From Microbispora corallina (GTDB lineage: Bacteria > Actinomycetota > Actinomycetes > Streptosporangiales > Streptosporangiaceae), in the NCBI RefSeq assembly GCF_016863035.1, contig NZ_BOOC01000030.1, positions 62,001-126,000 on the forward strand: a stretch of 64,000 nt of DNA, written 5' to 3'. The translations under genes were made by a program, and so were the position numbers. Shown here piece after piece: positions 37,583-49,182 of the stretch (positions are counted from its first letter, which is position 1; every line of letters begins with the position of its first letter). The notes beneath the pieces are model-generated. The model was given only the letters and a program-made list of their open reading frames with translations. It searched no databases and was not told the origin of the DNA.

Positions 37583-38290
37583 TCAGCGCGGCAGGACGGC
37601 GGCCAGGCGTTCGTCGCGGAGCCGCTGGTACCAGCTGTCGTCGATCTGCGGCAGCGGCCCGACGACCCAGCTCAGCAGCAGGTCGGCGAGCGCGGGGTTG
37701 CGGGCGAGCGCCGGCCCGTGCAGGTAGGTACCGATGACCCGCCCGGCGTAGCAGCCCTCCGTGCCGTCGCCGTTGCCGGTCCCGACGAGCGTGCGCGACA
37801 GCGGCCGGACGCCCGGGCCGAGCCGCGTCACGCCCATGTGGTTCTCGAAGCCCGTCAGCATCGGCAGGCCGAGCGCGGGGTCGACCTCGGCGGCCAGCTC
37901 GCCCACCGAGCGCCGCTCGCCGCGGCCCGAGCTGATGTCGAGCAGCTCGATGCCGGGCACCGGCTGGCCCTCCTCGCCGCCGAACACCGAGCCCATGATC
38001 TGGTAGCCGGCGCAGACCGCCAGCAGCGCCGCGCCGCGGTCGATGGCCTGGTGCAGCCCGCCGTCCTTGCGCAGCCGCTCGGCGCCGAGGATCTGCGGGC
38101 GGTCCTCGCCGCCGCCGATCAGGTAGACGTGCCCGTCCCGCGGCACGGGGTCGGAGGAGCGCACGTGGACGGTCCGGGTGGCGATGCCCCGGGCCCTGGC
38201 CCGCTGTTCGAGCACCAGGGCGTTGCCCTGGTCGCCGTACGTGCTCAGCAGGTCCGGGTAGATCCAGACGATGGCCAGCTCAGACTGCAC
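37583..38290 (-). CDS. gatD: Lipid II isoglutaminyl synthase, glutaminase subunit
   Basis: 235 residues, CobB/CobQ-type class I glutamine amidotransferase. The nucleophile is C93 in LLAVCAGYQIMG, and the catalytic His is H191 in GTYLHGP. It feeds ammonia to MurT to amidate the D-glutamate of lipid II, giving D-isoglutamine. The start overlaps the end of murT by 11 bases, so the two subunits are translated together. It is normally essential where cross-linking needs amidation. Confidence 0.93.
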   Translation of the reverse strand: MQSELAIVWIYPDLLSTYGDQGNALVLEQRARARGIATRTVHVRSSDPVPRDGHVYLIGGGEDRPQILGAERLRKDGGLHQAIDRGAALLAVCAGYQIMGSVFGGEEGQPVPGIELLDISSGRGERRSVGELAAEVDPALGLPMLTGFENHMGVTRLGPGVRPLSRTLVGTGNGDGTEGCYAGRVIGTYLHGPALARNPALADLLLSWVVGPLPQIDDSWYQRLRDERLAAVLPR

Positions 38291-39554
38291 GGTTGAACTC
38301 CGCTCGGATCTGCTGGAACGCGGTGTAGTTGGCGATGACGTCGATCCGGCCGGGCGGCAGCGCCGTCACGGCGTGGTCGAACGACTCGCAGAGCTGGAAC
38401 GGCACGTCGGCCACGGCCAGCCGCAGGGCCAGGTCGAGGCGGCGCTCGCCGGTCACGTAGACCGGGCGGCCGCGCAGGATGCGGTAGTCGACGTCCCACA
38501 GCCAGGAGGTGTCGCGGCCGTCCGGGCCCTGGGCGTTCACCGACAGGATGATCGGCAGCGTGGGGTCGGCGACGTCGAACGCCTCCAGCCAGCCCGCCGG
38601 GTTCTTCGACAGGAGCAGCCGCAGCGAGCGGCCGTCGCGCTCCACGGTGGTGTACCGACCGGCCACCGAGGTGACGGTGCGCAGCCGGCTCAGGGACCTG
38701 CCCGGCTCGACGCCGATCGCCTCGGCCGTGGCCATCGCCATGGCCGCGTTGGCCCGGTTGGCCTGGCCGGGAAGCTGGAGGTCGAGCCGCCAGCGCGTGC
38801 CGCGCGGGTCGATCACGTCCTCGCCGTCGAGCACCCAGTTGGGCTCGGGACGGTGGAACGTGCACTCGCGGCAGGCCCAGCTGGAGTCGGCCGACGGGGG
38901 CGCCCCGGTGCCCTGCCCCAGGCTCGCGGACCCGGCGCGGTCGAGCGGGCCGCCGCACTCGGGGCAGCACCAGGAGTCCTCGCGCCAGCGCTGCCCGGCG
39001 GCGACCCAGGTGACCCGGGCGGCCGTCGACGCGCCCCACGTCACGAGGGGGTCGTCGCAGTTGGCGATGACGTGGGCGGGCTTGCCGTCGAGCGCCCGCC
39101 GCCACTTCTGCGCGAGCAGCCAGATCTCGGCCGCCCGGTCCATCTGGTCGCGGCTCAGGTTCATCAGGCAGACGAGGCCGGCGTTGGTCGTGTCGAGGAC
39201 CTCGGGCAGGTACTTCTCGTCGACCTCCAGCACCCCGAACGGCGCGTCCTTGGCCGAGGACAGCGCCGAGACGTGCCCGGCCGGCATGTTCGCGCCGAAG
39301 GCGTTGGTCGCCACGCCGCCGAGCTCCTGGAGAGCCGATGCGATCAGGCGGGTCGTCGTGGTCTTGCCGTTCGTGGCGCTGACCAGGACGAGCGTGCGGT
39401 CGGCCGCGAGCTTGCGCAGCAGGTCGGGCTCCAGCATCAGCCCGACCCTGCCGCCGATGACCGAACCGTCGCCGCGCCCGGTGGCCCTGGACAGCGTCGC
39501 GGCCGTGCGGCCCAGGGCACTGGCGAGCTGGGCCCGCAACGGAAGCTGACTCAT
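38280..39554 (-). CDS. murT: Lipid II isoglutaminyl synthase, ATP-dependent ligase subunit
   Basis: 424 residues, Mur-ligase fold. The ATP P-loop is TNGKTTTT (61-68). A zinc ribbon is visible as C197-PEC200 and C228-REC231, the Cys4 insertion characteristic of MurT. The C-terminal DUF1727 part (RPVYVTGERRLDLALRLAVA, ALPPGRIDVIANYTAFQQIR) holds the catalytic Asp and the GatD contact. It acts with GatD on the cytoplasmic side of the membrane. The HerA-type gene ends 61 bases upstream and is transcribed in the same direction. Confidence 0.93.
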   Translation of the reverse strand: MSQLPLRAQLASALGRTAATLSRATGRGDGSVIGGRVGLMLEPDLLRKLAADRTLVLVSATNGKTTTTRLIASALQELGGVATNAFGANMPAGHVSALSSAKDAPFGVLEVDEKYLPEVLDTTNAGLVCLMNLSRDQMDRAAEIWLLAQKWRRALDGKPAHVIANCDDPLVTWGASTAARVTWVAAGQRWREDSWCCPECGGPLDRAGSASLGQGTGAPPSADSSWACRECTFHRPEPNWVLDGEDVIDPRGTRWRLDLQLPGQANRANAAMAMATAEAIGVEPGRSLSRLRTVTSVAGRYTTVERDGRSLRLLLSKNPAGWLEAFDVADPTLPIILSVNAQGPDGRDTSWLWDVDYRILRGRPVYVTGERRLDLALRLAVADVPFQLCESFDHAVTALPPGRIDVIANYTAFQQIRAEFNRAV

Positions 39555-39615: not shown

Positions 39616-42600
39616 TCAGCCGCCCAACGACTCGGGGAACGACAGCTCGGCCGGGGTGTCGCCGTCGAACGGCAGCACGAACCGCCGAGGCCACGAGAGC
39701 ACGGTCTCCAGCCAGCCCGCGCCCATCGTCTGCGCCACGTACTTGACCCGCTCGCGCGGCTCCACGCCGATCGCCACGGTCGTGACGTCGCGCTGGATGC
39801 CCTCGTGCTCGTCGTCGCCGAGGATGACCCGCCAGGCCAGCGCCCGGTTCCGGTCGACCTCCATCGACAGCGGGTGGTGGCGCAGGGCCTTGGCGCGGTG
39901 GCCGAGGAGCTCGGTGCGCACGCCGACCGCCACGCCCCCATCGCCCCCGGACGCGGGAGACGACCCGTTCAGCCCCTGATGCGGGTACGGCCGGCCGGCG
40001 GGATCGGTGCCGAACAGCGGATACTCCATCGCCGGAGCGGGGCTGCGCAGGTTGGGCGCCGGGTGGCCGTACGGGAACAGCCGGTCCACCTCGTGCAGCC
40101 ACCGGACCTGCGGGATGACCCACGCCGGGCCGGGGCGCTCCCCCGCCCGCATCGGCGGCTCGCCGTCGCCCGGGCCGAGCAGCCCCGCCGCGACCTCGGC
40201 GGCCTTCTCCGTCAGCAGCGCCGGGTCGAACCACGTCCGCAGCGACCAGGCGCGGCGGGAGACGGCCCGCTCGGCGAGCGTGGCCAGCAGGCACTCGCGG
40301 CGCTTGACGGGCAGCTCGCCCCAGATGTCGGCCAGCACGCGGGGCACGCCGGGCAGCGCCCGGTTGGTCACGAACGACAGCACGACCGTGTCCGTCCAGA
40401 TCCGCAGCCACGCCCACTCGGGGGCGACGGCCAGCAGGTCGGCCTCGCGCAGCTCCACCAGCGTGCACGCCTTGCCCGTGCGGCACTCGCGCCCGCAGGC
40501 GGCCGAGCGGCGCCCGCAGATCGGGGGGACGGGGCTCAGCATGGGCCGCTCCCGGTCCTCCCCCAGCGGCACCTGGACGCGCAGCGGCCGGTCCATGCCG
40601 TCGGCGAAGACCGCCGCGAAGCCGGGCTGCAGGGACACGACCTGCCGCGACTGGTCCTCGCTGAGGTTCATCGCGGCGCCCACGAGGCCCCGGTCGTCCT
40701 CGGCCGGCAGGCGATGGACCACCTTCAGCGCCGTGTTCTTCACCACGTCGGAGACGAGCTTGGTGGGGATCTGCTCGGCCACGACGATCCCCTCGCCGTA
40801 CGCCCTGATCTCGGCGAGCATACCGGCGAGCAGCTCGACGGCGTGGGTGGAGGCCCGCTGCGAGCCGCGGTCGCGCAGCAGCCGGTGGGCCTCCTCGATC
40901 ACGATGACGTGGCGCAGCCCGCCGGCCCCGTCCTCGACGCGCGGCTCCTGGCGGGCGCGCATGCGCAGGTGCTCGACGATGCGGATGATCAACGTGCCCA
41001 TGAGGAACGCCTTGTCCTCGTCGTTGGCCACGTCCTCGATCGCGAGCACGACGTTGCGCTGCAGCAGCCCGCCGATGTCGGCGGGATGGCCGCCCTCGAA
41101 AAACCGGCCGGCGCTGCCGACCCGCAGGCTGCGCAGGCGCAGGCTGATGAAGCCCTCGACGTCGGCCTGCACCTCGTTGCCGTACCCGATCTCCTGGATG
41201 ACCTCCAGGGCGTGCTGCTGGAGCTGCTCCAGGGTCGGCACGGCCGGCTGGACGGCGGCCCCCGGGATGCCGCCGCCGGTGACCACATCCCAGCCGTTGG
41301 CCTCGTACACCCGCTGGAGGGCGAGCGACATGATCTGCGGGAACGGCTCCTCCGCGTCGAAGGCCGCCATGAACAGCGCGCGGACCATGTCGATGTGCGC
41401 CTGCACCGGATAGCCGGGCTCGGGCGCGAGCGGGTTCACGCTGATCGGCACGTTGTCGGGCGCGGACGGGTTGATCACGGTCAGCGGGGCCAGGTGCTCC
41501 ACCCGGCCGGCCATGGCGGCGTACTCCGACTTGGCCGGCTCGATCGCCAGCCAGGGGATCCCGGCCTTGGTGAGCTGCTCCAGCAGGTGCCGTACGGTCT
41601 GCGACTTGCCCGAGCCGGTGGCGCCGGTGACGAAGGCGTGCCGGTTCAGCGTCGCGAGCGGCACCCGGAACGTTCCCACCGCCCGGTCCTGCCCGTCGAC
41701 GATGTGCCCGAGGTCGATGAGCTCGGCCGTGGCGTCGGTCTCGGCCTCGCTCGTCACGTCGAAGAAGCCGGCGTCGAGCACCCGCACCCCGGGCACCTCC
41801 CGGCGGGGCAGCCCGGCCAGCGCGGCGAGCGCCCCGGCCGTGGCAGCGAACGGCGCCGCCGCCCCGTCGGCCGAGTCCTGGAGGTTGACCGCGAGCGCCT
41901 CGTCGAAGCCGTAGACCGACTCGCCGCTGTCCGGGCCGGACAGGACGGGCAGCGACATCGCGCTGCGCAGCCGGTACGGGTGGTGGCTCATCTCGACCGA
42001 GCCGACCAGCACGGGCGCGATCTGCCGCAGCTCGTCGGGGCCCGCGGCGCCCGCGAGCACCCGGACGTTCCACAGCCCGGCCTCGCGGAACGCGTCGAGC
42101 TCCTGCATCCGCCGCTCGGCCCGCTCGGCGTCGAACCGCGACCGCTCGGAGGCGTCGCCGTACTGCCGCAGCACGTTGAGCTGGGTGCGCAGGTGGGCCA
42201 CCTCCGCGTCGAGCAGGTCGGTCGGCTCGGCCACCACCACCCAGCCGAACGGCCGGGACATGAGCGTGACCAGCGTCGACTCGAACAGCGTCGGCCGCTT
42301 CGGCTCGTCGGGCTCGGGCTCCCGCCTGCCGTACAGGGGCGGGGCCTGGCGGCCGGGGCACGGCGTCCAGACGAGGTCGGCGAGGTCGGCGAGCCACTCG
42401 TCGCCGATCTCCACGCCCCGCGCGCCGCCGGGGAACAGCAGCGGCTGGGGCCCGGTGACCGGCGTCTCCGCGGCCGCCGCCGCGCGCCGCGGCGGACGGG
42501 GCGGTGTGAGCGGCCCGGCGTTGGTGATCAGCTCGAGGGGCGCCCCCGAGCCGCGCGACAGCCACCCGATGACGAACGGCCGGTTGCGCTGCGCCGCGGA

Positions 42601-42711
42601 CAGGACCGCGGGAAGAACCGTGACGAAGTCCCACTCCGCAGACGAACTACGCGATGGGGCCGTGATCGCCTGGATCCGGTACCACGGCCCGCTCAGGGGG
42701 AACGGATGCAT
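39616..42711 (-). CDS. HerA-type (FtsK/VirD4 superfamily) ATPase, 1031 residues
   Basis: ATG 42711 with GAGGGG upstream; an earlier start at 42753 is not supported. The N-terminal ~340 residues are a domain I do not recognise. The ATPase region (~345-720) has Walker A GATGSGKS (363-370), a Walker B VIVIEEAHRLL (602-612) and AEIRAYGEGIVVAEQIPTKL, the sensor segment of HerA. A Cys set follows at C732, C739, C743 and C749 (C-x6-C-x3-C-x5-C), a likely metal site. The C-terminal ~280 residues are unassigned. No nuclease partner (NurA) is beside it, unlike DNA-repair HerA. The gene upstream codes a membrane protein with an apparently degenerate ATPase-like domain. Confidence 0.75.
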   Translation of the reverse strand: MHPFPLSGPWYRIQAITAPSRSSSAEWDFVTVLPAVLSAAQRNRPFVIGWLSRGSGAPLELITNAGPLTPPRPPRRAAAAAETPVTGPQPLLFPGGARGVEIGDEWLADLADLVWTPCPGRQAPPLYGRREPEPDEPKRPTLFESTLVTLMSRPFGWVVVAEPTDLLDAEVAHLRTQLNVLRQYGDASERSRFDAERAERRMQELDAFREAGLWNVRVLAGAAGPDELRQIAPVLVGSVEMSHHPYRLRSAMSLPVLSGPDSGESVYGFDEALAVNLQDSADGAAAPFAATAGALAALAGLPRREVPGVRVLDAGFFDVTSEAETDATAELIDLGHIVDGQDRAVGTFRVPLATLNRHAFVTGATGSGKSQTVRHLLEQLTKAGIPWLAIEPAKSEYAAMAGRVEHLAPLTVINPSAPDNVPISVNPLAPEPGYPVQAHIDMVRALFMAAFDAEEPFPQIMSLALQRVYEANGWDVVTGGGIPGAAVQPAVPTLEQLQQHALEVIQEIGYGNEVQADVEGFISLRLRSLRVGSAGRFFEGGHPADIGGLLQRNVVLAIEDVANDEDKAFLMGTLIIRIVEHLRMRARQEPRVEDGAGGLRHVIVIEEAHRLLRDRGSQRASTHAVELLAGMLAEIRAYGEGIVVAEQIPTKLVSDVVKNTALKVVHRLPAEDDRGLVGAAMNLSEDQSRQVVSLQPGFAAVFADGMDRPLRVQVPLGEDRERPMLSPVPPICGRRSAACGRECRTGKACTLVELREADLLAVAPEWAWLRIWTDTVVLSFVTNRALPGVPRVLADIWGELPVKRRECLLATLAERAVSRRAWSLRTWFDPALLTEKAAEVAAGLLGPGDGEPPMRAGERPGPAWVIPQVRWLHEVDRLFPYGHPAPNLRSPAPAMEYPLFGTDPAGRPYPHQGLNGSSPASGGDGGVAVGVRTELLGHRAKALRHHPLSMEVDRNRALAWRVILGDDEHEGIQRDVTTVAIGVEPRERVKYVAQTMGAGWLETVLSWPRRFVLPFDGDTPAELSFPESLGG

Positions 42712-42806
42712 GAGACCCCTCAGTTGACGTCGAACAGGGAGAGAATCCTTCAACGATCAGCCGCGCACATCCCTGTTGACGATGCCCTTACCGCGCGCGG
42801 ACGGTG

Positions 42807-44741
42807 TCATGGCCGCTTGCGCCAGTCGAGCCGGGGAGGCGGCGGCCCCAGGTTGGGGGGCGGCCCCGGCTCTGACGGCCCGTCCTCCTCCTGCCGGGGC
42901 GGGTCCGGTTCGTGGACGGCGAGCGCGGCCCGTCGCACCTCCTCGAACTCTCCCAGGGTCGTCTTCGGGAACGTGAGGATCGCGGGGTTGGCGTCCGCGA
43001 GGCGGACCTGGCGGCCCTCGGCCGTGGCGTGCGTGACGATGACCGAGGTCGTCGGGAGCTGCTGGAGCTGGTGCGGCTCGACGAGGAACTCGCGCGAGCG
43101 CTGCAGCACGCCCTCGGCCACCGCGGGGACGCTGCGCCCCCACTCGGTCGACTCGGTGATGCCCTCCCTCAGGTCGCCCTCGCCCTTCTCCTCGTGCCCG
43201 GTCCGGCCGGCCCCGACGGTGGAGGTGTAGAAGCCGCTCTGGCCGGGCGCGGCGGAGCTGAACGTCTCGGTGAGCTGGGCCAGCTCCAGCCGGTGCTCGG
43301 TGCCCACGTGCTCGCTGGCCACCCGGGCGTCCTCGGCGTTGCCCAGCCGCATGAACGCGACGGCCGCGTGCCCCCGGCCCAGCCGCTCCCGGACGGTCGG
43401 GGTGAGGCTGCGGTAGGTCAGGACGAGCCCGGTGCGGGAGGTCTCGCAGGCGTCCATCAACCGGTCGAGCACGTCCCCGCGCAGCTTGTCGGCCCCCGCG
43501 ACGATGATCGTGTGGTACCAGGGCCGCTCGCTCGCGGGCGACTGCCGCAGGATGTGCGTGAGCGCCGTGGCGACGTACGTCCCGAGCACCCGGTTGCCGA
43601 AGACCCCCGCCTGGCGGTCCATGCTCACCACCCGCAGCCGCGCGGGCGGCAGCCGTACGGCCTCGGTCCCGAGCGTCTCCAGCTTGCGCAGCTGCGACTC
43701 CAGAGCCCAGGCGCGTTCGATGACGACGCGGTCGGCCACGCCGCGGCCGAACAGCGTGCCGATCCGTTCGAGCTGGGAGGCGGTCAGCAGGCCGAACCGC
43801 ATGTCGTCCCGCGGGTCGCCCACCTGCGCGAGGGCCCGGAGGGCGGCGGTGACCTGGCTGATCGTGGCGTTCTCTCCCAGGACCTCCAGGACCCGCTCCA
43901 GGATCGCGTTGTCGAACCCGATGTCCCTGCTGGTCTCCTCGCTCACGCTCACGACGTGGGCCAGCACGTCGGCGAACGCCTCGGGCTTGAGCGTCGCGCC
44001 CAGGTCGAGCCGCGGCAGGTCCACGGGGAGCACCCACACCAGCGGGTCGTCGCCGCCCCTCCTCGCGAGCTCGATGAGGTCCTTGGCGATGGCGCCCTCG
44101 GACAGGTCGAGGACGGTGAGGTGGCCGCCGCTGTACAGCCGGGTGGCGCCGATGAGCGTGATCAGGGCCGACCAGCCGGGGAGGGTCCCGCCGGCCACGT
44201 CGACCCGGTCGATCTCGTCGGGGACGGCCACGGCGTACCAGGTCAGCTGCTTGTCGAACCTGCTCTTCTTCTCCGCCCAGTCGCGGTACTTGGCGGCGTG
44301 CTCCTCCTGGGCCGTGACGATCTCCCGCTGGCGGCGCTCCTGCTCGCGCCGCGCCTTCTCCCGCCGTTCGCGGATCCGCTCGTTGACGGTCCGGTCGCCC
44401 TGCCGGATGGCGTAGCTGCAGATCACCGCCACGCCGCCGGCCGCGACGAGGCCGAGCAGCACGAACGACCAGGCCAGCAGCTCGGTGACCCCCAGGGCCA
44501 GCAGCCCGGCGGCGACGACGACCATGAAGGTGCGGAAGATCCGTACCGGCCGATTCAGGAGGTCCTTCTGCATGCGCTCCCGCCGCGCCCACCCGTCGTC
44601 GACCGGCTGTGGCGCGGCGACGTCCTCGCGGGCGGGACGCTTGGGCGGCGGCCCGGGGTCCGGGTACAGCAGAGCGTACTGCCAGCCCAGGTAGATCCGA
44701 TCCGCCTGAAGCTGGGCATGCTCGGGGTGCGGGTCGCCCAC
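42807..44741 (-). CDS. Membrane-anchored degenerate ATPase-like protein, 644 residues
   Basis: Two membrane spans (~69-89 and ~91-112) are followed by a basic coiled coil (~115-160, RREQERRQREIVTAQEEHAA) and a large cytosolic domain. The late block TIIVAGADKLRGDVLDRLMD, then GLVLTYRSLTPTVRERLGRG and AVAFMRLGNAEDARVASEHV, has the order of the Walker B / sensor region of VirD4-TraD-like coupling proteins. The acidic DE pair is lost (AGAD), and no P-loop is present (nearest GGTLPGWSALITLIGATRL). It is probably a non-hydrolysing partner of the HerA-type protein, 95 bases downstream in the same direction. Confidence 0.6.
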   Translation of the reverse strand: MGDPHPEHAQLQADRIYLGWQYALLYPDPGPPPKRPAREDVAAPQPVDDGWARRERMQKDLLNRPVRIFRTFMVVVAAGLLALGVTELLAWSFVLLGLVAAGGVAVICSYAIRQGDRTVNERIRERREKARREQERRQREIVTAQEEHAAKYRDWAEKKSRFDKQLTWYAVAVPDEIDRVDVAGGTLPGWSALITLIGATRLYSGGHLTVLDLSEGAIAKDLIELARRGGDDPLVWVLPVDLPRLDLGATLKPEAFADVLAHVVSVSEETSRDIGFDNAILERVLEVLGENATISQVTAALRALAQVGDPRDDMRFGLLTASQLERIGTLFGRGVADRVVIERAWALESQLRKLETLGTEAVRLPPARLRVVSMDRQAGVFGNRVLGTYVATALTHILRQSPASERPWYHTIIVAGADKLRGDVLDRLMDACETSRTGLVLTYRSLTPTVRERLGRGHAAVAFMRLGNAEDARVASEHVGTEHRLELAQLTETFSSAAPGQSGFYTSTVGAGRTGHEEKGEGDLREGITESTEWGRSVPAVAEGVLQRSREFLVEPHQLQQLPTTSVIVTHATAEGRQVRLADANPAILTFPKTTLGEFEEVRRAALAVHEPDPPRQEEDGPSEPGPPPNLGPPPPRLDWRKRP

Positions 44742-44886
44742 AGGCCCTCCATGTCCGCCTCGGTCACAGCGTAGGAGCTGGAAGCCCTGTCAGGGCGTGC
44801 TTCTCGCCATTCGGACCTATTTCACCCCGAGAGGTGGGACGAATGCGGCGGATGGTTTAGATGTGGTCGTACTACCATCGCTTGCC

Positions 44887-45543
44887 ATGACGTCATCCCC
44901 CCATGGCGCCCGCCGCCGACGCCCGGTCCTCGTCCCGGTCGCCTCCGCGCTGGCCGCCGCGGGCATCGGCGTCACCGCGCTCCTCGGCGGCCTGAAGGAC
45001 GCCCCCGACAAGCCCCCGCCCAAGGTCGGCCCCGGCGACGTGATCGACCAGGGCGAGTTCCGCACCCAGTTCATCAAGGCGATCGACACCACCGAGAAGG
45101 GCGACTTCGGCGACACCAAGCGCTACCTGGAGCTGGTCCTCAAGGTCACCAACATGGGCGACGCCACCACCCATGTCGGCACGCTCCCGAAGCCGGGCGA
45201 CAAGTTCTCGACGATCACCGGCTTCGCCGGCTCCCTGCTGCGCACCCGGCCCGAGATCAAGACGAAGTACGGCCCCGAGGCCTCGGTGCTGAGCTACGGG
45301 ATCAAGAGCCAGCAACTCCACCCCGGCATCACGACCACCGTCGTGGTGAAGTACGAGCTGGAACCCACGGCCACCGCCCCCGAGGAGATCGGCGTCGATC
45401 TCGGCGGCTACTCCTACGACCCGGTCGGCCTGCGCGACCAGACCCACTATTGGCAGCTCGTGGGCGAGGAGGACGACAAGGGCGTCTTCACCCCCACGGT
45501 GGCCGCCCAGATCACCCTCCCTGTACGACGGGAGAGCGAGTGA
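44887..45543 (+). CDS. Single-span exported protein with Ig-like (DUF4352-like) domain, first of three
   Basis: 218 residues from ATG 44887. A basic N-terminus (RRRRP) is followed by one membrane span (VASALAAAGIGVTALLGG, ~15-32) and no lipobox, so it is an N-in anchor with an external domain. The outer part has VIDQGEFRTQFIKAIDTTEK and YLELVLKVTNMGDATTHVGT, an Ig-like beta pattern as in DUF4352. It ends in TGATG, overlapping the next start. It is divergent from the 644-residue membrane gene. The shared promoter gap (44742-44886) holds the short inverted repeat GCCCTGTCAGGGC. Confidence 0.65.
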   Translation: MTSSPHGARRRRPVLVPVASALAAAGIGVTALLGGLKDAPDKPPPKVGPGDVIDQGEFRTQFIKAIDTTEKGDFGDTKRYLELVLKVTNMGDATTHVGTLPKPGDKFSTITGFAGSLLRTRPEIKTKYGPEASVLSYGIKSQQLHPGITTTVVVKYELEPTATAPEEIGVDLGGYSYDPVGLRDQTHYWQLVGEEDDKGVFTPTVAAQITLPVRRESE

Positions 45544-46214
45544 TGGCCGTGACCCACGCCGGGATCCGGACCGAGGACCGGGCCGAGCAGGCGCCCCGGG
45601 CCCGCAGGGGCGTGACCCGCCGCCTCGTCGCGGGCATGGCCGGCCTTGCGCTCGCGGCGGCCGCGGTCTACGCGCAGACCTTCACCCTGCCGTACGAGCA
45701 GCGCGGCTCCGCACTTACCTACCAGGGCCGGATCGGGGGGATCGTCGAGACCTCGCGCTTCTCGGTGAAGGTCACCTCGGTGACGTCCGCCCGCGCCGTG
45801 GACACGACGGACCTGGGCGGCAAGGCGGTCAAGGTCGGCACGAGCAACCTCTTCCTCCTGGTCGACGTGTCGGCCACCACGCCGCGCGAGCCGATGCAGC
45901 TGAGCGAGCTCACCCCGCCGGTGCTGCTGACGGCCGACGGCCGGCGCTACAAGCCGACGGACAAGGTGGACAAGACGCTGACGCTGTTCAACAAGTGGAT
46001 CCAGCCGGGCTTCTGGTCCGCGGGCCTGCTCGTCTTCGAGGTGCCGAAGGACGCGATACCGGGGGCCCGGCTGGTGTTCGTGCCGCCCGACAGCCTCATG
46101 GTCTCGGACAGCTTCGCACCCGAGGCGCAGATCGACCTCGGCCTCTCCGGCGCCACCGCGACCCGGCTGGTGTCGCAGCCGGAGGACTTCCACTCCCTGA
46201 CGGGCAAGAGCTGA
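45543..46214 (+). CDS. Single-span exported protein, second of three
   Basis: 223 residues, starting within the previous stop codon. A positively charged cytoplasmic leader (RARRGVTRR) is followed by one span (LVAGMAGLALAAAAVYAQ, ~36-53). The external domain (SRFSVKVTSVTSARAVDTTD, LFLLVDVSATTPREPMQLSE, GFWSAGLLVFEVPKDAIPGA) has the strand spacing of a second DUF4352/Ig-like fold. It is not similar enough to the first protein to call a recent duplicate. Translational coupling on both sides argues that the three products are made in step. Confidence 0.65.
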   Translation: MAVTHAGIRTEDRAEQAPRARRGVTRRLVAGMAGLALAAAAVYAQTFTLPYEQRGSALTYQGRIGGIVETSRFSVKVTSVTSARAVDTTDLGGKAVKVGTSNLFLLVDVSATTPREPMQLSELTPPVLLTADGRRYKPTDKVDKTLTLFNKWIQPGFWSAGLLVFEVPKDAIPGARLVFVPPDSLMVSDSFAPEAQIDLGLSGATATRLVSQPEDFHSLTGKS

Positions 46215-47188
46215 TGACCGAGACGCCCCTGGGCGGGACCCCGCCCCATGACCACCCCGGCCCCGGGCACCAGCCCGGCTCCCCCCGGCCCGGCTCCCCC
46301 CGGCCCGGCTGGAACGAGGCGAACGGGCCCGATCCGCGGGACTGGTTCGCGCCCCCGCCCAGCCAGCCCTCCGACATCACCTACAGCGGGCCGCTGCCGC
46401 GCCCGGCGCCCCTCCCCGTCCCCATCCCCGGCAGGCTCACTCCGCCGGCCAAGGACCGGCGGGTCTGGCCGCCGCCTGAGCCCGAGCCGGAGGGCGAGGA
46501 CGGCTCGACCCAGCCGTTCCCCGCCATCAGGGGCACCAGGCCGTTGCCGCCGTCGGCCATCCGGTCGGGCCCGGCGCAGTCCGAGCCGCGGCCGCCCGTC
46601 CCGCCGCCCTCCGCCGCGCCCCGGCGCCGCCGGCGGGCGGTGCTCGTCGGCGCGGGAGCGGTCGTCTCCGCGGCCCTCGCCGTCGGGCTTCCCGCCTGGT
46701 TCGCCTACGGCGTCTACGAGTACGGCCGGCCGGCCGACGTGGTCCACCTCGTGAAGCCCGGGCAGCCGGGCGTGTGGCAGCACGTCTCGTGGCAGGTGTC
46801 GCTCCAGCGCATCCCGGACCCGAGCGGCCGGTCGGCGACCCCCGACCGCCAGTGGGTGAAGGTGATCGCCACGAGGACCGCCCTGGACGCCGAGGGCGCC
46901 ATCCGCCACGGCGCTCCCGAGGTCTCGCTGACCGACGCGGCGGGACGCACCTGGCGGACCGAGGAGCTCAGCAACGACACCCCGCCCGACGTGAAGGACA
47001 ACCGGGTCGGCACGCCGTACCGGATGGAACGGGTGGGCGTGGTCCCGCCCGCGGTGGCCGACCAGGTCGAGGTCCTGCTGAGGCCGAGCGTCTACCGTGA
47101 CGTCCCGGGGCAGTCGGCGGACGACTTCATGAAGGCCGCCTTCTCCTCCACCGAGAAGGAGGACCAGGTGCTGCGGTTCCTGCGCTGA
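46214..47188 (+). CDS. Single-span exported protein with Pro-rich cytoplasmic half, third of three
   Basis: 324 residues. About 140 N-terminal residues are Pro/Gly-rich and disordered (PGPGHQPGSPRPGSPRPGWN), suited to bind an internal partner. One span follows (VLVGAGAVVSAALAVGLPAW, ~147-170), then an external domain ending VYRDVPGQSADDFMKAAFSS. It begins inside the previous stop codon. It converges with the polytopic membrane gene, eight bases apart. No family was recognised beyond the single-span topology. Confidence 0.65.
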   Translation: MTETPLGGTPPHDHPGPGHQPGSPRPGSPRPGWNEANGPDPRDWFAPPPSQPSDITYSGPLPRPAPLPVPIPGRLTPPAKDRRVWPPPEPEPEGEDGSTQPFPAIRGTRPLPPSAIRSGPAQSEPRPPVPPPSAAPRRRRRAVLVGAGAVVSAALAVGLPAWFAYGVYEYGRPADVVHLVKPGQPGVWQHVSWQVSLQRIPDPSGRSATPDRQWVKVIATRTALDAEGAIRHGAPEVSLTDAAGRTWRTEELSNDTPPDVKDNRVGTPYRMERVGVVPPAVADQVEVLLRPSVYRDVPGQSADDFMKAAFSSTEKEDQVLRFLR

Positions 47189-47195
47189 CCCCTCA

Positions 47196-48482
47196 TCAGC
47201 GGCCCCGTCGGGCTTTGGTGGCGGCCAGGTCGAAGGTGGCGGCGACCAGGCACATCGTGATCACGGTGACGACCAGGTCCGCGACGAAGTCGACCGGCAC
47301 GTCGGTGACGAACCACAGATACGGTTTGTCGCTCGCCGTCAGGTAGCGGCCGGCCCGGCCCAGGTAGTCGCCCCCGACGTGCAGGCCGACGTAGCACAGC
47401 GCGAACAGCCCGAACAGCGGGGCGCCGCCGCGCACGGTGAGCCGCAGGGAGTTCAGCAGCGGGACCCATCGGTCCGTCCATCCGGCGCTCAGCTTCGTCA
47501 GCGCGCGCCGCGTCAGGGCGTGGCTGCGCTCGATCTGGTCGGCCGCCCGCTCCAGACGGGTTCCCCTGATCGTGGTCCGGGTGTCGTCGGCGTACGCGCC
47601 GTAGACGAGGATGCCGACCGTCAGCCAGGCGAGGGGCACCGCCAGCGCGTCGATGACGTACGGCCAGACGTCGCTCCAGAACGCGTTCCAGCCGGGGATC
47701 GCCTCCCCCGCCCTCGCCGTCAAGTCGTGCCAGCCCGCGACGGCGGCCCGGGAGCCGATCCAGTCGGAGCGGGCGCCGACGACGGCGGCTACGGCGTTGA
47801 GCCCGTAGAAGCCGAAGGCGAGCTCCCCGAACGTCGCCATGATCCCGGAGAACCGGCCGCTGCCGGCCTCATGGCGTCTCCCGAAGAACGTCTTGACCAG
47901 GTACGCGACGAACATGGTGACGAGGGAGACGCGGGCGTCGAGGTTGATGAGCCCGCCCATCACCCCGCTGTCGATGCCCTGGCCCGCGTCGACCCAGATC
48001 TTGTCCGGCTGCCGGAAGAGGTCGAGGTCCATGAAGTCGCGGACGTCCTGTTGGACGAAGCCCCACGTCATGTAGATGCCGGAGAACACCAGCGCGGTCC
48101 GGTTGAGCGCGCCGAGCACGCTCTCCTTCGCCTCGTCCGTCTCCCGGCGGGCCCGCGTCTCCATGAGGGCGTCGCGGATCACGTACAGCATGAGGACCGT
48201 CGTGGCGAGCGACGTCATCACCACGAGGGTGAACAGGAACACCACGACGACCAGCCGCGCCTGATACCAGGAGCCGTGCGAGAGCGTCGCCGCCAGGAGG
48301 AGGAGCCCCCAGCGCACGACTCGTCCCAGGGAGAAGCACAGGATCAGCGGCAGGGCGCACCGGGCGGCGATGCGCAGGGCGTGCAGCGGCAGCGCGTACG
48401 GCGATTGCGACCAGGAGGCCCTGCGGGGTGCGGCGTCCTGGCGGGGGGCGGCGAGCGCGGACGTTCCGGACACCTGCCGCAT
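47196..48482 (-). CDS. Polytopic membrane protein, 428 residues
   Basis: About seven hydrophobic segments: ~38-58, ~59-80, ~80-105, ~126-150, ~225-240, ~285-305 and ~345-410 (in pairs). The first two run LPLILCFSLGRVVRWGLLLL and VVVFLFTLVVMTSLATTVLM. A charged loop (YVIRDALMETRARRETDEAK) follows the third. It may be a transmembrane component of the HerA-associated complex, as it is convergent with the exported-protein operon and no other function is suggested by sequence. It could equally be an independent gene. Confidence 0.6.
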   Translation of the reverse strand: MRQVSGTSALAAPRQDAAPRRASWSQSPYALPLHALRIAARCALPLILCFSLGRVVRWGLLLLAATLSHGSWYQARLVVVVFLFTLVVMTSLATTVLMLYVIRDALMETRARRETDEAKESVLGALNRTALVFSGIYMTWGFVQQDVRDFMDLDLFRQPDKIWVDAGQGIDSGVMGGLINLDARVSLVTMFVAYLVKTFFGRRHEAGSGRFSGIMATFGELAFGFYGLNAVAAVVGARSDWIGSRAAVAGWHDLTARAGEAIPGWNAFWSDVWPYVIDALAVPLAWLTVGILVYGAYADDTRTTIRGTRLERAADQIERSHALTRRALTKLSAGWTDRWVPLLNSLRLTVRGGAPLFGLFALCYVGLHVGGDYLGRAGRYLTASDKPYLWFVTDVPVDFVADLVVTVITMCLVAATFDLAATKARRGR

Positions 48483-48533: not shown

Positions 48534-48965
48534 TCAGGGCGCGACGAGTTCCACGGTGGGGAAGTACGTCCGGTACCGGGACTCGTCCCGCGTCAGCAGC
48601 CGGTACCTCCGCACGGCCGCGTGGGCGCCGATGAAGAAGTCGGGAAGCGGGGACCTCCTCCCGCCTCCACGCCGCCGGTAGGCGAGAAAGGCCTTACCGG
48701 CCAGGAACGCGGCGTCGAACGGAATGTCCTCCCGATGGAAGTCCTCAGCTGGGAGCGCCTCCTCGAACTCCTCGACACTGGAGAAGCCGATCGACACCTC
48801 GGCGTACACGATCGGGTTGACGACGATGTGCCCCTCGTCCAACGCCGTGGCGAGGGCCTCGGCGGACCAGTCCGCCCACTTCGGGTCGTTCGTCGCGATG
48901 TCGAGAAGGACGCAGGAATCTACCAGCGTCGCCCTCTCGGGCACCACGCGAGGGCTACTGGTCAC
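48534..48965 (-). CDS. vapC: PIN-domain toxin VapC
   Basis: 143 residues. PIN-fold acidic residues: D16 in TLVDSCVLLDI, E56 in NPIVYAEVSIGF and an Asp in SPLPDFFIGAHAAVRRYRLL, which coordinate Mg for RNase activity. The start ATG overlaps the antitoxin gene by 11 bases, the usual coupled arrangement. Predicted action is cleavage of tRNA or rRNA when not bound by the antitoxin. Confidence 0.9.
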   Translation of the reverse strand: MTSSPRVVPERATLVDSCVLLDIATNDPKWADWSAEALATALDEGHIVVNPIVYAEVSIGFSSVEEFEEALPAEDFHREDIPFDAAFLAGKAFLAYRRRGGGRRSPLPDFFIGAHAAVRRYRLLTRDESRYRTYFPTVELVAP

Positions 48966-49182
48966 GGAGGAGCCCCATGATCTCGTCGGTCGTCATCCTC
49001 GTCGTCGCCGTTCCCCGCAGCCGTTGTGCCGCCCGGCCCCCGCGCGTCGCACTGGATTCACGCCGGACGATCTGCAACGTGTTCCCGACCTCGACCACGT
49101 CCACCTCGTCACCGGGATGCAGCCCGTACTTCTCGCGGATCTCCGCGGGGATGGTGACCTGCCCCTTGCTGTTGAGCCGCAT
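48955..49182 (-). CDS. vapB: AbrB/MazE-fold antitoxin VapB
   Basis: 75 residues from ATG 49182, with AGGAG upstream; the GTG at 49200 is less well placed. The swapped-hairpin domain reads MRLNSKGQVTIPAEIREKYG and LHPGDEVDVVEVGNTLQIV, the SpoVT/AbrB type. The C-terminus (MTTDEIMGLLRDQ) is the likely VapC-wrapping helix. It precedes vapC in the same transcript. Paired repeats at 49201-49223 sit just upstream. Confidence 0.88.
   Translation of the reverse strand: MRLNSKGQVTIPAEIREKYGLHPGDEVDVVEVGNTLQIVRRESSATRGGRAAQRLRGTATTRMTTDEIMGLLRDQ

Follow-up and report, generated by a model that had tools for sequence, protein, structure and literature searches.

Gene content of the block

The window analysed here, a 64,000-nucleotide stretch of an 8.36 Mb Microbispora corallina genome (contig NZ_BOOC01000030.1, positions 62,001 to 126,000), contains between positions 39616 and 48482 a block of six genes encoding a HerA-type ATPase, a membrane partner protein, three single-span proteins (T1, T2 and T3) and a polytopic membrane protein. 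The block is real and cohesive within one family, the Streptosporangiaceae, and it consists of two separable modules: module A (partner and ATPase) and module B (T1 to T3 and the polytopic protein). In the window, genes resembling gatD and murT, the ATPase gene and the partner gene lie in this order on the reverse strand, followed by T1, T2 and T3 on the forward strand and by the polytopic gene, again on the reverse strand. The six reading frames listed in a preliminary description of this DNA were all present; the same six were chosen by a frame-scoring gene caller, and third-position G+C was 0.945-0.975 in each of them.

T1 (218 residues; 44887..45543, forward), T2 (223 residues; 45543..46214, forward) and T3 (324 residues; 46214..47188, forward) each have one hydrophobic span with basic residues ahead of it, as judged from hydropathy, and in T3 a long proline-rich N-terminal part precedes the span. 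The starts of T2 and T3 each fall on the final base of the preceding stop codon, which agrees with the overlapping starts noted before. The predicted outer domains of the three proteins would face the envelope. That of T2 is DUF4352-like (DUF4352 in 13 of 27 members, best E-value 3.6e-9, the window member falling just short with 25.3 bits for a cut-off of 25.9), while T1 gave weak matches to DUF5067 in 5/27 members and to DUF4352 in 4/27, and no Pfam family was common to 26 members of T3. The three proteins were also considered as paralogues, an origin that was rejected on the weak profile comparisons among them. The polytopic protein (428 residues; 47196..48482, reverse) has eight hydrophobic peaks in the profile of an alignment of 32 members and five in the single sequence. 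The hydropathy of these four proteins and of the partner bears out the membrane-bound or exported character previously assigned to all five.

The window proteins were searched against the Pfam, NCBIfam and PADLOC profile libraries and also compared with PDB sequences. As had been supposed, the three libraries matched no named system beyond generic or weak HerA-type matches, and the partner, T1, T3 and the polytopic protein of the window had no useful Pfam match. The divergent intergenic region between the two modules (44742..44886) has short conserved blocks near both starts in the alignment of relatives, and a palindrome, TGACGTCA, lies over the first T1 codons in many relatives; promoter and coding constraint are both possible.

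The ATPase and its membrane partner

The ATPase (1031 residues; 39616..42711, reverse) matches HerA_C (4e-10) and DUF87 (8.8e-7) above the cut-offs, and TrwB_AAD_bind barely above. Within this HerA_C/DUF87 core it has both motifs of a HerA-type pumping ATPase: Walker A (GATGSGKS) near residues 362-370, with the lysine kept in 32 of 34 aligned relatives (the remaining two being fragments), and Walker B (VIVIEEAH) near residues 602-608. By motifs and profiles it is thus an active ATPase of the HerA/FtsK type, as proposed in the preliminary description, and membership of this class would imply a hexameric ring. Solved HerA proteins match in the core only. After the core there is a cysteine cluster (C739/C743/C749), of which all three residues occur in 30 of the 34 aligned relatives; in the same alignment the ATPases of Nocardia, E. 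coli and Lactococcus did not show the cluster, and one further row ends there.

The partner (644 residues, GTG start; 42807..44741, reverse) belongs to no Pfam family, and its top named matches are from Microbispora and Planotetraspora. It comprises a hydrophobic region at about residues 71-107, a charged stretch, a large domain without Walker A and a proline-rich C-terminal end, and the conserved columns include an invariant GGxxxGW at 184-190. This protein had been described as carrying a dead ATPase-like domain; the absence of Walker A is clear, and ATPase ancestry was not detected. The likeness to VirD4/TraD coupling proteins is one seen by eye without profile support. For a dead FtsK/VirD4-type ATPase, significant support came neither from Pfam on 15 members, nor from PDB profiles, nor from NCBIfam on five accessory or distant partners, nor from profile-profile comparison, nor from an unfiltered profile run over 2,452 called proteins, and this identity was set aside. 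A single PDB match below 0.001, to the hydrophobic/charged region of an ABC exporter, was taken as chance. In genera without module B, the gene directly upstream of the partner encodes a membrane protein whose P-loop domain is TraD-like (SXT_TraD 4.2e-9, below cut-off; L023 13128-14879, with the same family in L024 and L049-L051).

Conservation and gene order in close relatives

Genome contigs were profile-searched with an 11-member partner alignment, giving 187 relatives; the best 80 were retained, so this sample represents the closest relatives. All six genes were found in 66 of the 80 loci, covering 13 named genera and one further. Among the 14 incomplete loci, nine end at a contig edge near the block and five do not; L071, L088 and L120 have no T3 match, and most of module B is missing in L074 and L078. 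Interruptions inside the block were rare, with 0/67 between the polytopic gene and T3, 0/67 between T3 and T2, 0/76 between T2 and T1, 2/76 between T1 and the partner and 0/78 between partner and ATPase. This makes 2/364 in total (14 of the 364 boundaries were counted as uninterrupted and span at least 600 bases without a called gene), against 43/67 at the DUF1416-polytopic edge and 13/71 at the ATPase-murT edge. Other pairs of the region are also unsplit (sseA-DUF1416 0/69, murT-gatD 0/71), and gatD and dsrE were split in 13/62. In six Sphaerisporangium loci a second polytopic-T2-T1 set is present, duplicated as a unit.

Directly after the ATPase, on the same strand and possibly in one operon with it, lies the murT-like gene (38280..39554, reverse; MurT_C 3.1e-17, above cut-off), and beyond it the gatD-like gene (37583..38290, reverse; GatD models 9e-32 and 7e-29, below the equivalog cut-off). 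In the relatives, murT adjoins the ATPase in 58 of the 71 loci holding both, and gatD adjoins murT in all 71 of the loci that have murT and gatD. The remaining nine of the 80 loci do not show both ATPase and murT, some through a contig end, and three Nonomuraea loci with full flanks (L095, L103, L108) keep the six genes with no murT nearby. In other Nonomuraea the spot between ATPase and murT accepts insertions, since unrelated genes sit there, by eye nuclease-like exported proteins or an AAA-type pair (L100 14992-15552, L109 14926-15495, L124 14423-16315).

On the other side of the block, where toxin genes had been reported as absent, the present reading differs: a VapC-like PIN gene (PIN 1.3e-9) preceded by an AbrB-like open reading frame (ORF) adjoins the polytopic gene at 48534-49182 on the reverse strand, between that gene and the DUF1416-sseA pair. 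The PIN/AbrB-like pair was found at this site only in some Microbispora and Microtetraspora relatives.

The ATPase is rare outside its home order. Of 198 genomes sampled from the phylum, 3 (its own genome counted) matched the window ATPase with E at or below 1e-30; with the ATPase of genome G249 as the query (E at or below 1e-80), matches were found in 5 of 121 genomes of family f20, G249 counted. A mobile origin of the resident block was considered and rejected: the lone high-identity 'plasmid' match comes from Nonomuraea and, at 11.85 Mb, is evidently chromosomal, and two phage-labelled contigs match the ATPase core only.

Two separable modules

The block had been presented as one six-gene system. 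Its cohesion was confirmed by the few internal interruptions, and its indivisibility was not, the two modules being found apart outside the close family. Across 60 genomes, a strong ATPase match (E below 1e-100) was present in 32 and the polytopic gene in 32, with both in 23; among the genomes bearing the polytopic gene, eight had no ATPase match at all, a ninth had a distant one only, and four had no partner match. Twelve distant loci with the polytopic gene (L142-L153) were read over 13-17 kb each; in 11 of them genes of the T type adjoin it, arranged convergently as in the block, and neither partner nor ATPase was found within any of the 12 stretches. The partner-ATPase pair is likewise present without the module B cassette in other genomes. 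The preliminary description had named, as evidence against itself, a failure of the six genes to stay together beyond close relatives; they were held together in 66 of the 80 closest loci, and this failure is partly seen, since the block splits into its two modules outside the close family. The modules also differ in their rate of change: in three Microbispora comparisons the third-position share of differences was 0.71-0.83 in module A and 0.42-0.55 in module B, module A being slow-evolving and conserved at the protein level and module B fast-evolving.

Some neighbouring genes of the separate modules were noted. Pairs of proline-rich single-span proteins of one family, possibly in the place of the T proteins, are encoded beside the ATPase in L026 (2176-4444) and L027 (14108-16990). 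Type VII-like genes (EccB-, WXG100-, mycosin- and EccC-like, assigned by eye from called starts) adjoin module A in L027 (383-5543), and type VII-like genes, also by eye, adjoin module B in L143 (1607-4285) and L144 (8643-13000).

Toxin linkage in part of the wider ATPase clade

In part of the wider clade, which is proposed here as toxin-linked, toxin-like genes follow the ATPase, a linkage that, like that of murT-gatD, had been left out of the preliminary description. Eight accessory loci hold partner and ATPase: the plasmids L155 (S. clavuligerus), L156 (Nocardia) and L157 (S. antimycoticus), and five family f20 genomes (L139, L164-L167). In five of the eight a toxin-like gene lies 3' of the ATPase, two passing the curated cut-off and three being weak. 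The five are an ADP-ribosyltransferase in S. clavuligerus (2.1e-24); a calpain-like protease in G249 (1.5e-11), with DUF6406 next; a RelA/SpoT-like gene in S. antimycoticus (4.4e-4, below cut-off), followed by an ORF of 94 residues and an HD_4 hydrolase (2.2e-21); an ADP-ribosyltransferase-like gene in G307 (weak, 1e-4); and an SA1320-like gene in Nocardia (weak, 1.1e-4), followed by ankyrin. In L139 the toxin-like gene is separated from the ATPase by a 59-residue ORF. Among 17 plasmid-borne relatives of the ATPase that lack the partner, an HNH gene lies directly 3' in four (E. coli, Lactococcus, Treponema and Exiguobacterium; three phyla), and SMI1/KNR4 is next after HNH in three of these. 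Five weaker, more distant HerA-like genes served as controls, and none had a recognisable toxin directly 3'. The resident block has no toxin or immunity genes 3' of its ATPase, murT-gatD being found there instead. In an unrooted tree, without an outgroup HerA, resident and partner-type ATPases were joined apart from the other sampled members with support of 1.000.

The N-terminal traits of the toxin-like proteins were measured as hydropathy and composition, without a signal-peptide or disorder predictor. Seven of these proteins have no hydrophobic N-terminal stretch within the first 60 residues (top 19-residue mean 0.88), and three have strongly acidic N-terminal regions; the share of aspartate plus glutamate in the first 150 residues is 0.25-0.39 in the two ADP-ribosyltransferase-like proteins and the RelA/SpoT-like protein, and 0.14-0.26 in the other four.

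The partner-less plasmids L160 (E. coli), L161 (Lactococcus) and L175 (Treponema) carry, in operon-like order, two dynamin genes, then one or two small genes, the HerA-type ATPase, HNH and SMI1/KNR4, with a hypothetical protein in the SMI1/KNR4 place in Lactococcus. No paper was found in the literature searched for dynamin, SMI1, HNH and toxin together. The dynamin-type ATPase occurs in 1 of 5,426 E. coli genomes, which is too few for a survey of the toxin slot in E. coli. A fusion of partner and ATPase in the E. coli-type protein was rejected, as the match was of low complexity and lost on filtering. A chromosomal cluster seen in G001, G003 and G039 (L035, L054 and L034) has two dynamin-type genes (by Pfam on L035), one unassigned gene with a product of some 380 residues and a HerA-type ATPase that is more distant.

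Proposed function and alternatives

The block is best explained as a two-module membrane machine that is resident and passed on vertically. In module A the HerA-type pumping ATPase would be docked on the membrane-anchored partner, which would gather substrates for the ATPase to thread to or through the membrane; in module B the polytopic protein would stand with the three single-span proteins, whose hydropathy and charge place their outer domains toward the envelope, as an outer platform in the Streptosporangiaceae. Here it is tentatively proposed, as a possibility somewhat short of even, that the machine is an ATP-driven motor for protein export, retained by the cell as a resident part of its envelope. 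The idea of a protein cargo comes from the toxin-like and likely immunity genes that follow the ATPase in the accessory relatives of module A, and by this analogy protein is more likely to be the cargo than DNA. Since no toxin but usually murT-gatD follows the resident ATPase, the machine may have turned to an envelope task. Docking, export, cargo and a tie to peptidoglycan amidation are all putative parts of this proposal.

Several observations weigh against protein export. The resident block has no identified cargo, and no clear toxin was seen by eye among the neighbours listed for seven home-order ATPase loci (L025, L029, L030/L141, L031-L033, L052). Three of the eight partner-bearing accessory loci (L165, L166, L167) have no toxin by eye, and in 13 of the 17 partner-less relatives nothing recognisable as a toxin was found, one of the 17 (L168) being without annotation and many neighbours being annotated merely as 'hypothetical protein'. 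In L139 and L164 other genes separate the partner from the ATPase and the two lie on opposite strands, and in control L182 a two-partner secretion pair lies one gene further on. A joint machine is also not required, given that module B occurs elsewhere without module A and does not accompany the accessory pairs, 13 loci of this kind having given no match to T1, T2 or the polytopic protein. The worst-fitting datum is the partner beside murT-gatD with the ATPase gone in five genomes (L037-L039, L041, L042), which a motor-partner model does not predict.

The toxin linkage also fits an intracellular conflict or defence role, in which ATPase and partner would detect or process foreign DNA at the membrane and set free an effector that its immunity gene otherwise restrains, the Streptosporangiaceae form being a domesticated, effector-less remnant. 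HerA ATPases belong to anti-phage systems, mad8 and several other PADLOC HerA models match the ATPase, and HerA/FtsK 'capture' systems have been proposed in defence (PMC12839542); the accessory members are moreover plasmid-borne near other conflict genes, such as a three-component ABC system. This role is considered unlikely. Against it, the ten window proteins scanned with PADLOC included no further defence component, and the resident block, slow-evolving in module A and vertically inherited across the family, is unlike typical defence islands. SMI1/KNR4, in addition, is a common immunity family of exported toxins. Rather unlikely, too, is an envelope or cell-wall machine, with modules A and B and MurT-GatD jointly acting on peptidoglycan, by lipid II amidation, or on export tied to the wall as cells grow or sporulate. 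The linkage to murT-gatD may leave room for it, as partner, ATPase, murT and gatD are co-oriented, murT adjoins the ATPase in 58/71 loci and the partner stays with murT-gatD in the five genomes without the ATPase; set against this are the 13/71 loci where other genes separate ATPase and murT, the nine of 80 that do not show both, some by contig end, and the three full-flank Nonomuraea loci. MurT-GatD also functions without such partners in other bacteria.

A DNA-transporting translocase for chromosomal conjugation or segregation appears improbable. In its favour, the ATPase is of the HerA/FtsK class, comes closest among the NCBIfam equivalogs to CedD, a DNA importer of archaea, though with a score far below the cut-off, and has a more distant relative in R. 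opacus with relaxase and coupling-protein genes nearby. However, the toxin linkage favours protein, the polytopic protein has no CedA-like match in the libraries searched, and relaxase, pilin and lytic transglycosylase genes, as well as NurA, were not found among the window genes scanned (part of the window), consistent with the absence previously reported. Least probable of all is that two unrelated modules merely lie side by side in one family. Their separation in other genera and their different rates would fit, as would the nearby pairs that are also never split (sseA-DUF1416 0/69, murT-gatD 0/71), but the boundary between A and B is split in 2/76 loci only, in one case through duplication of the B cassette, and both outer edges of the block break often.

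Returning to protein export, a wider and more doubtful form of the proposal is an undescribed secretion system for toxins without signal peptides, which would be exported by a HerA-type ATPase acting with its membrane partner or, in other bacteria, with a dynamin pair. The mobile form of this system would carry toxin-immunity pairs in several phyla, and one actinobacterial family would have combined it with a membrane cassette of four genes and turned it into a core machine of the envelope. If true, this would be a new motor family for bacterial protein export, and it would supply a delivery route for toxin-immunity genes to which none has been assigned. Should export prove wrong, there is still a conserved, unnamed machine in one family of soil actinomycetes, whose division into two modules shows an experimenter what should be deleted jointly.

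Comparison with known systems

In the literature searched (few subscription journals and no bioRxiv preprints), as far as its texts were available, neither the block nor the linkage of ATPase and toxin was described. The block ATPase shares Walker A, Walker B and the C-terminal core with HerA/DUF87 ATPases, and differs in its long N- and C-terminal extensions and its three-cysteine cluster; the block has a membrane partner where those ATPases have NurA or SIR2-like proteins. HerA equivalogs of DNA repair scored 26-39 bits against cut-offs of 800-970, and no NurA match was found among the scanned neighbours. The best PADLOC match of the ATPase is a partial one to mad8 of the anti-phage system MADS (4e-17), and the other nine of the ten window proteins scanned had no PADLOC match. 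For type IV secretion, the matches of the ATPase are generic or partial (TrwB_AAD_bind just above cut-off, others below), and the other five proteins had none.

The type VII (ESX) systems have parts that are by type like those of the block, namely a membrane-linked FtsK/HerA-class motor, single-span proteins with outer domains and a polytopic protein. No EccC, EccB or EccD matches in Pfam or NCBIfam were obtained for the partner, the trio or the polytopic protein, and no WXG100 gene was noticed beside the block within the window. FtsK/HerA-class motors drive type VII toxin export (PMC3482391). The Ced system of crenarchaea (CedD/CedB and CedA) likewise combines a HerA/VirB4-like ATPase with a polytopic protein, and CedD and CedB are of the HerA clade, with N-terminal domains that resemble parts of the VirB4 N-terminal domain; the external trio of the block is not part of Ced as described (all from the available part of PMC11868833). 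CedD is the best NCBIfam match of the block ATPase, a partial one (3e-16; 59 bits against a cut-off of 600), and the polytopic protein had no CedA match in Pfam, NCBIfam or PDB sequences. The dynamin-dynamin-ATPase-HNH-SMI1/KNR4 plasmid loci of E. coli and Treponema, with a similar one in Lactococcus, have two dynamin genes where the block has its partner and no module B, but they share a homologous ATPase, about 30% identical to that of the block over the core, placed directly before a toxin-like gene.

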